Below, piece after piece: positions 10,633-21,725 of a stretch of DNA of 33,465 bases. Under the pieces are notes generated by a model. That model saw nothing but the letters and a program-made list of their open reading frames with translations. It was not told the DNA's origin and searched no databases. Numbering within the stretch: position 1 is the stretch's first letter; every line of letters begins with the position of its first letter. This stretch comes from an uncultured Lachnospiraceae bacterium (GTDB taxonomy: Bacteria > Bacillota > Clostridia > Lachnospirales > Lachnospiraceae). The translations under genes and the position numbers were made by a program. The stretch lies in the NCBI GenBank assembly GCA_947039785.1, contig CAMQZX010000010.1, forward strand, positions 1 to 33,465, read 5' to 3'.

Positions 10633-11631
10633 ATGGGATACCAACTATCACGAAAGACTGCGGATGAAGTATTTGGCAAGTTAAAAGAACGCTATGATAT
10701 TTTCGCACCGAAACTTTTCCAGGGCGAAGGCTGCTTCTCCGACACAGACATCATCCGTTATGGAAAAATTGATTCTCTGGATGAAATCGAATATGAGCGT
10801 CGTTCTGACTATTCCTTCAAGGAAGCTTTGATCGCCATCAACGAAACGCTTTTCTATTTCACTGAAGACGAAACCACTGTTCCCTCCTGCACTGACAAAA
10901 AGCTTCTGATTTTCCTCAGGAGCTGTGATCTGCACGCGCTGAAAAGATTAGATGCCATCTATTTGGAAAACGGACCGGAGGATTTCTACTACAAACGTCT
11001 CCGCGAGAAAGCCAGCTTTGTGCTGATGGGCTGCAGTCAGACCTGCGATACCGGATTCTGTGTCAGCATGGGCGCCAACCAGACTGACCAGTACGATCTG
11101 TATCTGAAACTGGATGGAGATTTTGTATTGGTGGACTGCAAATCGGAGGAATTGGCAGGTTATTTCCAGCACCTTGAAACTGAGGATTGTGCAGTGACTG
11201 CCGACTATGTGACCGAAAACAAAGAGAACGTAACTCTTCCCAAAAATCTGTCTGTGGACAGCTTCCAAAATCCCATCTGGGAATCTTACGGCAGCCGCTG
11301 TATCGGATGCGGACGATGCAATTTCGTCTGTCCAACCTGTACCTGTTTCACCATGCAGGACATTCACTACCGCGACAATTCCAACGTAGGTGAAAGAAGA
11401 AGAGTCTGGGCTTCCTGCCAGGTGGACGGCTACACTGACATCGCCGGTGGCAACAGCTTCCGCAAAACTCAGGGTGAACGGATGCGTTTTAAGGTAATGC
11501 ATAAAATTTACGACTTTGAGAAGAGATTCGGCTATCCCATGTGTATCGGATGCGGACGCTGTGACGCTGTCTGTCCGGAATACATATCCTACGCCAATCT
11601 GATCAGCCAACTTGCAAAGGAGGAAGCCTAA
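10633..11631 (+). CDS. asrA: Anaerobic sulfite reductase subunit A
   Basis: A 332-residue iron-sulfur protein, the electron-transfer subunit of the NADH-dependent anaerobic sulfite reductase that reduces sulfite to sulfide. Two ferredoxin-type [4Fe-4S] motifs are visible: CIGCGRCNFVC at Cys223/226/229/233 and CIGCGRCDAVC at Cys304/307/310/314. Additional cysteines occur near the first motif (236, 238) and in the N-terminal half (GCSQTCDTGFC, 134-143). Length and motif order match AsrA of Salmonella and clostridia. asrB starts at the next base after the stop codon, so the subunits are co-translated. The protein should be cytoplasmic and pass electrons from AsrB to AsrC. Confidence 0.95.
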   Translation: MGYQLSRKTADEVFGKLKERYDIFAPKLFQGEGCFSDTDIIRYGKIDSLDEIEYERRSDYSFKEALIAINETLFYFTEDETTVPSCTDKKLLIFLRSCDLHALKRLDAIYLENGPEDFYYKRLREKASFVLMGCSQTCDTGFCVSMGANQTDQYDLYLKLDGDFVLVDCKSEELAGYFQHLETEDCAVTADYVTENKENVTLPKNLSVDSFQNPIWESYGSRCIGCGRCNFVCPTCTCFTMQDIHYRDNSNVGERRRVWASCQVDGYTDIAGGNSFRKTQGERMRFKVMHKIYDFEKRFGYPMCIGCGRCDAVCPEYISYANLISQLAKEEA

Positions 11632-12423
11632 ATGAAGAACGAATACATCCCTTTTCCTTCCCAGGTAAAAGAAATCATCCCTCATACAGACATTGAGTAT
11701 ACCTTCCGTATGAGCTTTACCAAAGATGTGAAACCCGGACAATTTTTTGAGGTTTCTATTCCCAAATACGGTGAAGCTCCCATCTCTGTCAGCGGAATTG
11801 GAGAAGATACTGTGGATCTTACCATTCGTAAGGTAGGTAAGGTTACCAACAAAATTTTTGAAAATTACGAAGGAAATACGCTGTTGATGCGGGGACCTTA
11901 CGGCAATGGATTTGACATCGAAAACTACAAGGGTAAGGAAGTTGTCGTAATCGCCGGAGGAACCGGCTTGTCTCCTGTTAAGGGTATCGTGGACTATTTC
12001 TCCGATCATCCCGATGAAGCTGTCAGCACCACATTGATCGCAGGCTTTAAGTCTCCCAGCGACATCTTATTTAAAAAGGATTTTGAAAAATGGGAAAAGA
12101 CCATTCAGGTTATTAAGACGGTTGACTCCGCCCCGGAAGGATATGAAGGTCTCACTGGAATGGTAACAAAATACATACCGGATCTTCCCATCGTAGATAT
12201 GGAAAACACAGTCTTCATCACAGTTGGACCGCCGATCATGATTAAGTTCACCATCATGGAAATCTTAAAACGTGGCATTGCAGAGGAGAATATCTGGATT
12301 TCCCACGAGAGAAAGATGTGCTGCGGCCTTGGAAAATGCGGACACTGCAAGATGGATTCCACCTACGTCTGTCTGGATGGACCGGTATTTAACTATGCAG
12401 AAGGCAAAAATCTGATTGATTAG
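11632..12423 (+). CDS. asrB: Anaerobic sulfite reductase subunit B (NAD(P)H:acceptor flavoprotein)
   Basis: A 263-residue flavoprotein of the ferredoxin-reductase/PyrK-like family. The N-terminal beta barrel (to about 95) would bind the flavin. The Rossmann half has the nucleotide-binding AGGTGLSPVKG at 108-118, and the C-terminal VGPPIMIK (198-205) is typical. A cysteine cluster, Cys230/231/236/239 plus Cys247, would hold a [2Fe-2S] centre as in PyrK. AsrB takes electrons from NADH and hands them to AsrA. The ribosome binding site AAAGGAGG lies inside the end of asrA, and asrC begins 12 bases after the stop. Confidence 0.95.
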   Translation: MKNEYIPFPSQVKEIIPHTDIEYTFRMSFTKDVKPGQFFEVSIPKYGEAPISVSGIGEDTVDLTIRKVGKVTNKIFENYEGNTLLMRGPYGNGFDIENYKGKEVVVIAGGTGLSPVKGIVDYFSDHPDEAVSTTLIAGFKSPSDILFKKDFEKWEKTIQVIKTVDSAPEGYEGLTGMVTKYIPDLPIVDMENTVFITVGPPIMIKFTIMEILKRGIAEENIWISHERKMCCGLGKCGHCKMDSTYVCLDGPVFNYAEGKNLID

Positions 12424-12435
12424 GAGGAGGCGAAC

Positions 12436-13410
12436 ATGGGATTAGATATCAACACCAAAAAAGCGAAAAAAAATGCATTTAGAATCAGCAAAGAGCGAGG
12501 AATCGGAGCATCCCGAATCCGTGTGCCAGGCGGTTATCTGAAGGCAGAAATCCTGGGCATGGTACAGGAAATTGCAGAAAAATACGGAAACGGAATCGTT
12601 CATCTGACCACTCGCCAGGGCTTTGAGATTGAGGGAATCCATCTGGAGGATATGGACGCCATCAATGAGATGCTTCAGCCCATCATTGAACTTCTGGACA
12701 TCAACCAGCAGGATGAGGGAACTGGATACCCGGCTTCCGGAACAAGAAATATCACTGCCTGCATCGGTAATAATGTCTGTCCGTTTGCCAATTACAACAC
12801 TGCCAGTTTCGCCAAGCGTGTGGAAAAAGAGATTTTCCCCAACGACCTGCATTTCAAGGTGGCCTTCACAGGATGCCCCAATGACTGCGGTAAGGTACGG
12901 CTCCATGACTTTGGTATCATTGGCATGACCATGCCCCAGTATGACCCCAGCCGCTGTGTCAACTGCCAGGCTTGTGTCAAGGGCTGTAAGAGTCTGTCTG
13001 TAAACGCACTGAGAGTGGAAAATTATAAGATTGTTCGCGATGAGGAAAAATGTATCGGATGCGGTGTCTGCATCACCAAGTGTCCTACCAGAGCTTTTAC
13101 AAGAAGCAAGCAGAAATATTATAAATTGACTCTCATGGGAAGAACCGGTAAGAAAAACCCACGTCTGGGCGAAGATTTCCTGATCTGGGCAGACGAGGAT
13201 TCCATTGTGAAAATCATCTTAAATACTTATCGCTTCGTAAAGGAATACATTGATCCCAAAGCACCAGGCGGCAAGGAGCATATCGGATATATCATTGACC
13301 GTGTGGGCTTTGAAGAGTTTAAGAAATGGGCTTTAGAGGGCGTAGAACTGCTGCCGGAGACTAAGATGAAAGAGTGTGTATATTGGAACGGTATTCATTT
13401 TGACCGTTAA
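12436..13410 (+). CDS. asrC: Anaerobic sulfite reductase subunit C (siroheme catalytic subunit)
   Basis: A 324-residue siroheme sulfite reductase subunit. The coupled siroheme/[4Fe-4S] site is intact: Cys109-x5-Cys115 (CIGNNVC) and Cys147-x3-Cys151 (CPNDC). Two ferredoxin motifs are inserted after it, at Cys174/177/180/184 and Cys206/209/212/216, an arrangement typical of AsrC and not of assimilatory CysI. The N-terminal part includes the HLTTRQGFEI sulfite/nitrite reductase signature. It should carry out the six-electron reduction of sulfite to sulfide in the cytoplasm with AsrA and AsrB. It is the last gene of the operon and is followed by two hairpins. Confidence 0.95.
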   Translation: MGLDINTKKAKKNAFRISKERGIGASRIRVPGGYLKAEILGMVQEIAEKYGNGIVHLTTRQGFEIEGIHLEDMDAINEMLQPIIELLDINQQDEGTGYPASGTRNITACIGNNVCPFANYNTASFAKRVEKEIFPNDLHFKVAFTGCPNDCGKVRLHDFGIIGMTMPQYDPSRCVNCQACVKGCKSLSVNALRVENYKIVRDEEKCIGCGVCITKCPTRAFTRSKQKYYKLTLMGRTGKKNPRLGEDFLIWADEDSIVKIILNTYRFVKEYIDPKAPGGKEHIGYIIDRVGFEEFKKWALEGVELLPETKMKECVYWNGIHFDR

Positions 13411-13538: not shown

Positions 13539-15170
13539 TTACTGTTTTGATGCTTGCATCTCTCGCACAGCTTTTCTCACTTTCAGCACCATAGAAGGAG
13601 CAACCGATAACTCATCCACTCCCATACGGACAAATTCCTCTGTCAATTCCAGATCGGCGCCCAGCTCACCGCAAATGCCCGCCCATTTGCCGCATTTGTG
13701 AGCGTTGTCCACCACCATCTGAATCATTCTCAGAATAGCCTTGTGGTGAGGATTGTAGAAATCGTCCAACTTTTCATTCTGACGATCAATGGCCAGAGTA
13801 TATTGGGTCAGGTCATTGGTTCCGATGCTGAAAAAGTCCACAAGCTCTGCCAGCTCATCGCTGACCATAGCTGCTGCCGGAGTCTCAATCATAATTCCCT
13901 GCTCCGGGATTTTGTAAGGAAGCTCGTCATTGTCCAACTCCTGTTTTACCTCATCCACAATTTCATAAATCCTTCTGACTTCCTCCGGGGAAGTGATCAT
14001 GGGGTACATAATGGAGAGATTTCCAAAAATCGCCGCACGCAGCAGGGCGCGAAGCTGTGTCTTGAAGATTTTGGGCTGCTTCAGACAGATGCGGATGGCG
14101 CGGTAACCCATGGCAGGGTTATCTTCCTTGCCCAAATTGAAGTAATCCACCTGTTTGTCAGCGCCGATATCCAGAGTACGGATAATCACCTTCTTTCCTG
14201 CCATCATCTGAACCACCTGCTTGTACGCCTGGAACTGTTCCTCTTCTGTGGGGAAATCATTTTTTCCCAGATATAAAAACTCACTGCGGAACAGCCCAAT
14301 GCCTCCCGCATCATTTTCCATTACATAACCCACATCACTGACGCTTCCGATGTTAGCATAGATGTTAATCTTCTTACCATCTTTCGTGACGTTCTCCTTG
14401 CCCTTCAGAGTCTGCAAAAGCTGCAATTTCTCTGCCTCTTCCTGTATTCTCTCCTCTGTCTCGCAGCACAGCTCCTGGGATGGTTCGAAGATAACTTCTC
14501 CCTGAAAACCGTCCACAATGGCCTTCATTCCTGTGTGGATTTCCTCCAGATTCATGGGCACGCCAATCAATGCCGGGATGTTCATCATACGCGCCAGAAT
14601 TGCAGTGTGGGAATTGGTGGAGCCATGGACAGTCACAAAGGCAAGGATTTTCTCCTTGTCCATCTGCACTGTCTCACTGGGGCTTAAATCGTCTGCCACA
14701 ATGATGGACGGCTCCATGGATGCAAAGTCCACATCCTCTCTGCCTTCCAGATTTCTCACCAGACGGTTGGAAATATCCTTAATGTCCGCGGCTCTGGCCT
14801 TCATGTAGTCATCATCCATGCTGGCAAACATCTGGGAGAAATTGTCTCCCGTCACAGCCACGGCATATTCTCCGTTTACCATCTCTGTGCGAATCATATT
14901 GTGGATAGCGTCCAGATAATCTTCGTCCTCCAGCATCATCTGATGTACTTCAAAGATAGCGGCACTGGTCTCTCCCACTTCTTTTACCGCCTTATCATAC
15001 AGCTTCTGAAGCTGCTTTTGAGCTTTAGTCAAAGCTGTCTCCACTCTCTGGATTTCTGCCTCTGGATCTTCAATTTTTCTTCTCTTTACGGTACAGTCAT
15101 TGCCAGTCAGCACTGCCACCGGCCCCAATACAATACCCTTATATACGGATTTTCCCTGATATGCTTTCAT
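13539..15170 (-). CDS. ptsI: PTS enzyme I (phosphoenolpyruvate-protein phosphotransferase)
   Basis: A 543-residue enzyme I, which takes phosphate from phosphoenolpyruvate and passes it to HPr. The phosphorylated His188 lies in GSTNSHTAIL. The C-terminal PEP-binding barrel carries IGLFRSEFLY (291-300), DFFSIGTNDLTQYTLA (445-460) and the catalytic Cys500 in GICGELGAD. The length is slightly short of the usual 570-575, mainly in the N-terminal region, with no missing motif. The start ATG at 15170 has a good CAGGAGG site. It is downstream of ptsH but separated by a hairpin with a T-tract, so EI level may be set partly by read-through. Confidence 0.95.
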   Translation of the reverse strand: MKAYQGKSVYKGIVLGPVAVLTGNDCTVKRRKIEDPEAEIQRVETALTKAQKQLQKLYDKAVKEVGETSAAIFEVHQMMLEDEDYLDAIHNMIRTEMVNGEYAVAVTGDNFSQMFASMDDDYMKARAADIKDISNRLVRNLEGREDVDFASMEPSIIVADDLSPSETVQMDKEKILAFVTVHGSTNSHTAILARMMNIPALIGVPMNLEEIHTGMKAIVDGFQGEVIFEPSQELCCETEERIQEEAEKLQLLQTLKGKENVTKDGKKINIYANIGSVSDVGYVMENDAGGIGLFRSEFLYLGKNDFPTEEEQFQAYKQVVQMMAGKKVIIRTLDIGADKQVDYFNLGKEDNPAMGYRAIRICLKQPKIFKTQLRALLRAAIFGNLSIMYPMITSPEEVRRIYEIVDEVKQELDNDELPYKIPEQGIMIETPAAAMVSDELAELVDFFSIGTNDLTQYTLAIDRQNEKLDDFYNPHHKAILRMIQMVVDNAHKCGKWAGICGELGADLELTEEFVRMGVDELSVAPSMVLKVRKAVREMQASKQ

Positions 15171-15198
15171 TTGCCTTTTCCTCCTGCCCCATTTTCTG

Positions 15199-15231
15199 AA
15201 AATAGCCGGGCGTGAAGAGAGGCCCCGGCTA
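15199..15231 (-). terminator. Terminator or attenuator between ptsH and ptsI
   Basis: Perfect 8-bp stem TAGCCGGG (15203-15210) / CCCGGCTA (15224-15231), running into TTTT on the minus strand. It lies after the ptsH stop and before ptsI, both transcribed leftward. Confidence 0.7.
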
Positions 15232-15284
15232 CTTTTGCTATTACCAAATATGTGTGAAAGGTTTCTAAGATAAATAGTTGTTCT

Positions 15285-15541
15285 TTATAAATTATTTTTT
15301 AAAAATGCTTCAAATTGATTTACAGCGGTGTCTTCGTCTGCACCTTCTACTTTAACCACAATTTTATCACCGCATTTTACACCCATTCCCATTAGAGCCA
15401 TCAGCTTGGAAGCGTCCACTTCCTTGTCGCCCTTCTGATGGTGACTTTACTCTGATATTTCTTTACCTCTTTTACCAGAATGCCTGCCGGTCTTGCATGG
15501 ATTCCCAGTTCATCTGCTACTACATACTCAAATGTTTTCAT
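15285..15541 (-). pseudogene. ptsH: HPr phosphocarrier gene with a one-base frameshift
   Basis: Read from the ATG at 15541 behind AAAGGAT, the frame gives MKTFEYVVADELGIHARPAG and continues to VTI at residue 35, with the phosphorylated His15 in GIHARPA. It then runs off into a stop after ten more residues. Re-reading one base back (near 15435-15440) restores the rest of a normal HPr: KGDKEVDASKLMALMGMG, then GDKIVVKVEGADEDTAVNQF, ending at the stop 15285-15287. The repaired product would be 85 residues, the family length, so exactly one base is missing. Either this is a sequencing or assembly error or ptsH is inactivated. The residue at the usual regulatory Ser46 position appears to be Lys. 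It lies between the GH1 gene and ptsI on the same strand. Confidence 0.9.
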
Positions 15542-15629: not shown

Positions 15630-18966
<3,337 letters not shown>

Positions 18967-19149: not shown

Positions 19150-19173
19150 AAAAAAAGCGGCTATGACAGCCGC
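19150..19173 (-). terminator. Terminator overlapping the end of the RpiR gene
   Basis: Stem GCGGCT (19157-19162) / AGCCGC (19168-19173), running into seven T on the minus strand (19150-19156). The RpiR stop codon (19161-19163) lies inside the stem. Confidence 0.85.
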
Positions 19174-19886
19174 CTTCCGATGTTTTCCAACAGGTAGATT
19201 ACCGGTACCTGTGTGGTGATATTATATTCCTCATGTACCATACGTCTGGTCACGAAATAAGACAAATGATAATCTGACATTTTCGCCAGAGTACAAGCGG
19301 TTCCGTTGGTTATGCTAAACAGCTTACATTTGTGCCGCTTAAAGCGCTCTGCCAGCCGCAAAACCTGCTGCGTCTCTCCGGATTCCGACAGGGCAATCAC
19401 CACTGTAGATTCCATGTCTCCCCCAATGGGATAGTAGGGATCCCCGATATACTGACTGTATTTCCCCAGGTTGGAGAAATATCTGGCCCCGTATTTTCCA
19501 AGGATTCCCGATGTTCCTATACCAATAAAAATCAACTGCTTTGCCTCCCGGATCACTTGAGTGACCTGATTGATAGATGCCTCATATTGATTGGAGGTTA
19601 CCGTATGGAGAAAGTACATAATTTCATCAACAGCAGTATCCTTAATCTGTGGTTTCTTACTTTCCTTCTCTTCTTTTAAAAACAACTTAAACTGTACCTT
19701 AAACTCTGAGTATCCGTCACACCCTGTTTTCTTGCAAAACCGCACAATGGTGGAAGTGGATACATGCACTACCTCTGCCAGTTCGCGAATGGTCATGTAT
19801 TTTACTTCCTCCTTGTGCTCCATGATATAATTATATACCAACATTTCCAGGTCATTATACGACTGCAAAATCTCATAGCCAAACAT
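19161..19886 (-). CDS. RpiR/MurR-family transcriptional regulator (HTH-SIS)
   Basis: A 241-residue regulator with an N-terminal helix-turn-helix (about 31-66, TIRELAEVVHVSTSTIVRFC) and a C-terminal SIS sugar-phosphate-binding domain (about 108-230, with IFIGIGTSGILGKYGARYFS and ALSESGETQQVLRLAE). Proteins of this family sense phosphorylated sugars. It is encoded directly upstream of, and in line with, the beta-glucoside PTS genes but separated by its own terminator. It probably responds to a 6-phospho-beta-glucoside or glucose 6-phosphate and controls the operon through the inverted repeat at 19036-19068 (inference). GGGAGGAA precedes the ATG. Confidence 0.9.
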   Translation of the reverse strand: MFGYEILQSYNDLEMLVYNYIMEHKEEVKYMTIRELAEVVHVSTSTIVRFCKKTGCDGYSEFKVQFKLFLKEEKESKKPQIKDTAVDEIMYFLHTVTSNQYEASINQVTQVIREAKQLIFIGIGTSGILGKYGARYFSNLGKYSQYIGDPYYPIGGDMESTVVIALSESGETQQVLRLAERFKRHKCKLFSITNGTACTLAKMSDYHLSYFVTRRMVHEEYNITTQVPVIYLLENIGRRLS

Positions 19887-20385: not shown

Positions 20386-21725
20386 TTAATTGGCTTTCAC
20401 TGTGATTGACCTGGATGCAAAAAGCTTTTTATGCGCATTGACTGACAGAACACATGACGTCCAATGGAGGTCAGCCCTGTTCCGATGGTTACCTTTTTCA
20501 GGCTGCTGCATCCGTAGAATGCCTTTTTCGCCACGCTTGTCACCCTGTAGGTGATACCTTTGTAAGTGATGGTTTTCGGGATTTTGATGGTTGTAGCAGT
20601 TTTATTGATTGTTCCAATGCAAGCCACTGCCTTGGTTCCAGTCACTTTGTACTGCAGCTTGGCAGATGTGGCTGTCCTCCCACAGCAATTAACTTGCCAG
20701 AACCAGCAATGGTACCCTGATCAAGAATAACTGCAGTACCTCCTACAGAAGTTGCAGCCAAGTGTCCACCGCCATATACAGCCAATACAGCCCCTTCCGT
20801 CAAAGTCAGAGTTCCGTTTTTCACCATAAGGCCTGTCTGTCCGGCATAACTTTTGCCTGTGGCAGAATCTGTACCTGTGGGCGCTTCATCACCACGGATA
20901 AATACTTGTCCTTCTATGTTTACATTCCCTTCTGTTACTACCACAGGATTTGTATTCTTACGTGCTTCTGTTCCATTAGCAATGTTATTTGTATTGGAGT
21001 AAATCTTTGCATTTTTTAATGTTGCACCGTCTCTTAAAACCAGCTGCCCATTGATGGAAGCACCCGTCAGGAATGTTCCGCCGTCTGTATAATCATCATA
21101 ATTCATGGAGAATGTTCCGCCATTCTGCACATCTACAATCCCCTGAACGGTTGAATCTCTGAGAACAAGAGTTCCTCCGTCCTGCACAACGATGCGGACA
21201 CTGCTTAAAATGTCCATATTTACAAGTGTTAAATTACAGCCTGAGGGAATAATAAGGGTCTGTGTTGTTTCTGTTCCTTCCGGTATAGCGTAGCCAAGTT
21301 CTCCATAGGTGCCGCTGGTGGCATCATACCCTTTCTGATTTACCAATGCAGATTCAAAGTAGCCTACTAAACGCACATGAAGTGTATACTCATCTCCTGG
21401 TTCTTCATCCTGGTCTGCTGGTTTTACACTGACATCGTTGCCTGCAACAACTATTTTCAGGCTTAATGCATCATATTCCGGATGCTGAATAGTAAGTATA
21501 TCTCCTGACTTAAATGGAACGCCACTCATTTTATCGAAATAAATTGCATTATTCTCTTTATCCAGATAGTATTTTGTTCCATTTAAAGCCATCATGTATT
21601 CTGTTTGCTCTAACACTACATCGTTACAGGCAATGGATGAAATACCGTCTACATATCCGTTTCCTTCTACTCTGAGAATAAAATAAGTAGACTCTGTGGA
21701 ATCTGCAGTAAGCCGCCATCCTTTT
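20386..21725 (-). pseudogene. Decayed cell-surface/BspA-like protein gene
   Basis: A protein-like stretch runs leftward from about 21722 (WRLTADSTESTYFILRVEGN), but no ATG or ribosome binding site opens it and a TGA lies just upstream at 21740-21742, so the 5' end is lost. The first ~320 codons include beta-repeat-like text (GGTLVLRDSTVQGIVDVQNG, LTLTEGAVLAVYGGGHLA). Near 20675-20680 a one-base shift breaks the frame: the next frame continues TATSAKLQYKVTGTKAVACI into a BspA-type leucine-rich repeat (TSVAKKAFYGCSSLKKVTIG). Near 20450 the frame appears to shift again, the third frame ending FASRSITVKAN at stop 20386-20388. No signal peptide or wall anchor remains. I read it as a fragment of a once larger surface or adhesin protein. 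Confidence 0.75.

Follow-up and report, generated by a model that had tools for sequence, protein, structure and literature searches.

An HPr gene split between two reading frames

The HPr gene, ptsH, of a phosphotransferase system (PTS) operon in an uncultured Lachnospiraceae bacterium appears to lack a single base, which raises the question of whether the gene is genuinely broken and, if so, what the break means for the PTS. We analyzed the surrounding 33,465 nucleotides (the window), which are contig C10 of a draft genome of 4.10 Mb in 375 contigs, 96% complete. An operon-like run on the minus strand holds, in order, genes for an RpiR-type regulator, EIIBCA, a bglA-like protein, HPr, and Enzyme I (EI) (Table 1). 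The position of ptsH directly before ptsI on the same strand, with EII genes alongside, is that of a ptsHI operon with a PTS permease, and full Pfam domains were found in EI, the GH1 6-phospho-beta-glucosidase, EIIBCA, and the RpiR regulator. The same bglF-bglA-ptsH-ptsI order occurs, intact, at locus L063, where bglA and bglF are 87% and 78% identical to their counterparts in the window.

Table 1. Features of the ptsH region (window coordinates)
Feature	Position	Strand	Basis or remark
ptsI, Enzyme I, 543 aa, intact	13539..15170	-	Pfam domains; orthologues
Stem-loop and T-run in the ptsH-ptsI gap, terminator/attenuator-like	15187..15240	-	Also in L063, L052, and L061
ptsH (HPr gene), whole	15541-15285	-	ATG at 15541
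ptsH 3' part, other frame, residues ~36-85	15285..15446	-	PTS-HPr profile 36-80
ptsH 5' part, residues 1-35 including His15, then out-of-frame tail	15401..15541	-	PTS-HPr profile 2-37
ptsH junction, one base short versus intact relatives	15430..15440	-	Frame comparison; relatives
bglA-like GH1 family 6-phospho-beta-glucosidase-like gene, intact	15630..17060	-	Pfam
bglF-like beta-glucoside-type EIIBCA, 630 aa, intact	17074..18966	-	Pfam
RpiR/MurR-type regulator (HTH_6 + SIS), intact	19161..19886	-	Pfam

The window ptsH resembles the HPr genes (PF00381) of Firmicutes ptsH-ptsI operons in its length, its GIHARPAG His15 motif, its place directly before ptsI, and its association with a PTS permease in one operon, but differs from them in that a one-base shift interrupts its frame near codon 36. 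The first frame reads MKTFEYVVADELGIHARPAGILVKEVKKYQSKVTI and then unrelated residues up to a stop at 15401-15403, giving 46 codons and a predicted product of 46 amino acids that keeps the GIHARPAG motif. The second frame is open from 15446 to a stop at 15285-15287 and encodes ...KGDKEVDASKLMALMGMGVKCGDKIVVKVEGADEDTAVNQFEAFLKNNL, with no start codon of its own ahead of the mid-domain methionines conserved in the family. Each half alone matched the 81-position Pfam PTS-HPr profile (E = 9.5e-11 for the 5' half and 4.2e-13 for the 3' half), and when proteins of related loci were aligned, 24 alignments showed the same split, so it is not a chance result. HPr is typically encoded in one uninterrupted frame of about 85 codons; here, the handover between frames at ~15430-15440 leaves the gene one base under its 85-codon relatives. 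These observations agree with a first-pass annotation of the window, which had described two HPr halves in two frames with a junction near 15435-15440, joined by stepping back one base, beside intact EI and EIIBCA genes. As assembled, and judged by its sequence, ptsH is a pseudogene of HPr rather than a working member of the family. Its product would be cut after about 35 correct residues, retaining His15 but losing the fold, and we infer that the locus yields no functional HPr.

A second difference concerns the Ser46 position, where the window HPr has lysine rather than the serine of Bacillus HPr; the same holds for other ptsI-linked HPr proteins of Lachnospiraceae. The stem-loop between ptsH and ptsI gave z scores of about -3.6 to -4 in relatives and was not significant in the window; from its sequence it resembles an attenuator, through which HPr could be made in excess over EI. 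Elsewhere in the window (10633-13410, plus strand), three adjacent genes read like subunits A, B, and C of anaerobic sulfite reductase.

Lesions in ptsH at related EI loci

We compared 88 EI loci, chosen by EI similarity and comprising 80 loci from a genome scan, the window, and loci of the same genus and of the same genome. The gene directly upstream of ptsI was an intact ptsH in 61 of these, broken in 5, missing in 21, and unjudgeable at a contig edge in 1; ptsI itself stays where ptsH is broken or missing. At L095, ptsH lies downstream of ptsI instead. The five broken genes (the window, L030, L052, L061, and L083) carry five unrelated lesions. L083 appears to have lost one of the copies of a short direct repeat near codons 25 to 28, L030 is truncated after codon 27, and just a 3' remnant is left in L052 and L061, which in L052 is fused to part of an rpiR-type gene. 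On the EI tree, by a quick method that gives approximate counts, the five broken genes represent five separate changes and the missing genes require 13, at least 7 of which are forced by well-supported branches.

This comparison bears on two accounts in which the divided gene would still be useful. Programmed -1 frameshifting, perhaps regulated, could yield full-length HPr, and a one-base step back would indeed link the two halves. However, neither an XXXYYYZ heptamer nor a homopolymer of four or more bases was present in the frame overlap (15446-15404 searched). The intact relatives are all single-frame at the junction, so nothing is conserved there, and the lesions of other relatives differ in place and kind. 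We consider such recoding highly improbable and did not assign ptsH to the programmed frameshift genes, for which a conserved slippery heptamer is expected. The absence of a heptamer and the unbroken relatives uphold the first-pass annotation, which had seen no slippery heptamer at the junction and thought a genuine deletion or a sequencing error more probable than programmed frameshifting. Equally improbable is a split protein assembled from the two halves, or a 3' half made separately. In its favor, sequence is conserved in both halves, but the 3' frame offers no start upstream of the conserved methionines, HPr is one small domain, and no relative is divided in this manner at the same site.

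Recent mutation or consensus error

In a nucleotide comparison with L063, the closest intact relative, ptsH of the window gave a pN of 0.12 and a pS of 0.66, and pN did not differ between the halves. These values indicate that the gene was under purifying selection until recently, and therefore that the lesion is either recent or artefactual. Intact functional relatives and purifying selection before the lesion, both seen here, are the marks of a recent-frameshift pseudogene. The same constraint, still visible in both halves, is also what an error in the consensus would leave, in which case the cell would have a whole ptsH and the base would be missing from the draft alone: a lone lesion in a well-conserved gene has the look of an isolated error, the draft is fragmented into 375 contigs, some of which carry leftover adapter at their ends, and a surface protein gene near 20670 on the same contig also looks broken.

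Set against this account, the junction lies outside any homopolymer, and ptsH decay recurs among relatives. In addition, when proteins of the 80 related loci and of a same-genus genome were used as tblastn queries, they covered 118.5 kb of the genome and revealed no credible frameshift other than that in ptsH, so the assembly is not rich in indels generally. An earlier homology scan with few references had covered just 51 kb. An apparent frameshift at L125:19574 was rejected, as the query probably begins with 21 residues of untranslated leader from a stop-to-stop open reading frame. Detecting frameshifts ab initio from codon usage was dropped after it made many false calls, because antisense open reading frames had entered the training set, and missed the ptsH site.

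Nextera mosaic-end remnants were found at contig ends (L103 on C7, 17878-17891; L104 on C144, 10009-10022), where they give spurious open reading frame tails with MCIRDR; the window contained no adapter sequence beyond chance, and a plasmid collection that was searched gave no match. The remnants suggest that the assembly was built from Illumina reads, and Illumina data seldom lack a single base outside a homopolymer. In the same-genus genomes G001 and G002, no EI was found closer than 78% to that of the window, and the lesion is known from one assembly. The isolation of the lesion and the repeated decay of ptsH in relatives favor a real mutation, which we regard as fairly likely, with the lesion present in the DNA of the living cell. 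The decays in L052 and L061 are not exact parallels to that in the window, as the bgl genes too are gone from beside those remnants. A consensus error is unlikely, though it keeps an appreciable chance; the window ptsH is probably an ordinary pseudogene.

The surface protein gene (20397-21616, minus strand) appears to be divided between two frames, with a junction near 20670. Its 3' part matches LRR_5 (BspA type), it has no clear 5' or 3' end, and it appears to be a second degraded or misassembled gene in the window.

Other phosphocarriers in the same genome

The first-pass annotation had proposed that loss of HPr would disable the PTS unless a second HPr existed. The search of the rest of the genome answered that proviso many times over, and the proposed loss of function is not supported: six intact HPr-family open reading frames lie elsewhere, and with these genes present the cell is not expected to lose PTS function in general. 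EI was matched six times in all; of the five matches outside the window, four are full length and one is cut by a contig end. HPr adjoins EI on four contigs, as a canonical ptsH-ptsI pair on C7 (its EI 77% identical to that of the window), after fructose genes on C144, and with other PTS genes on C63 and C37. The two remaining HPr-family genes are, unlike the window ptsH, intact and, again unlike it, unlinked to ptsI. One is a Crh-like gene on C14, which follows rapZ and whiA and has glutamate in place of His15; the other, on C67 (L106, 641-3091), encodes an HPr with His15 and Ser46 and adjoins cdaA-cdaR, genes of c-di-AMP synthesis. At L172, an HPr similar to the C67 type lies by a cdaR homologue. 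Four EIIC permeases are encoded in the genome (C24, C10, C144, and C37).

We therefore favor, with good but not full confidence, a recent one-base frameshift in a redundant, operon-local ptsH of a beta-glucoside PTS operon, a lesion that would be tolerated through the other phosphocarriers of the genome. EIIBCA would then be served by HPr from elsewhere, and the HPr of the C7 pair is the most likely substitute. The break has thus probably knocked out a spare copy and not the uptake of sugar. As a routine case of a broken paralogue, it is a warning that a pathway should not be called lost on the strength of one broken gene before spare copies have been looked for.

Retention of EI where ptsH is lost

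Incomplete PTSs are known in bacteria, for example, in Brucella (PMC2937029). The genomes of L052 (G004) and L033 (G008) are of this kind, with EI kept and other parts lost: each has one intact EI and no PTS_EIIC match, and by sequence each appears to hold an orphan EI. The window's genome is unlike them, as it retains four EIIC permeases along with several HPr/EI pairs that are intact. In the genomes of L030, L052, L061, L083, L033, and L060, the canonical ptsI-type HPr was not found and the remaining full HPr-type genes are of the Crh-like type, a type like that linked to cdaA/R, or both; the relatives are mostly metagenome-assembled genomes, in which absence is weaker evidence than presence.

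A survey of the EI/HPr chain treated the ptsH and ptsI genes of Firmicutes as a pair that evolves largely as a unit (PMC2405797). The repeated local loss of ptsH is a modest refinement of the known picture and no new kind of system. The window could plausibly be an early step in a recurrent uncoupling of ptsI from ptsH in Lachnospiraceae. A broader proposal, that ptsI-linked HPr has been repeatedly lost in this family while EI is kept even in genomes without a detectable PTS_EIIC permease whose sole remaining HPr paralogues are Crh-like and of the cdaA/R type, so that EI would have a job independent of the operon HPr and the window would mark an early stage of that uncoupling, is tentative and, in our estimate, rather doubtful. 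If it were true, EI might, for example, phosphorylate the second HPr type for regulation. The survival of ptsI beyond ptsH across many lineages raises the question of which HPr partners EI, and to what purpose, among gut Lachnospiraceae that have few PTS permeases or none. In the genome of L046, another HPr gene (L183, 907-1180), next to a PTS EIIC gene, has its break between about codons 37 and 40.
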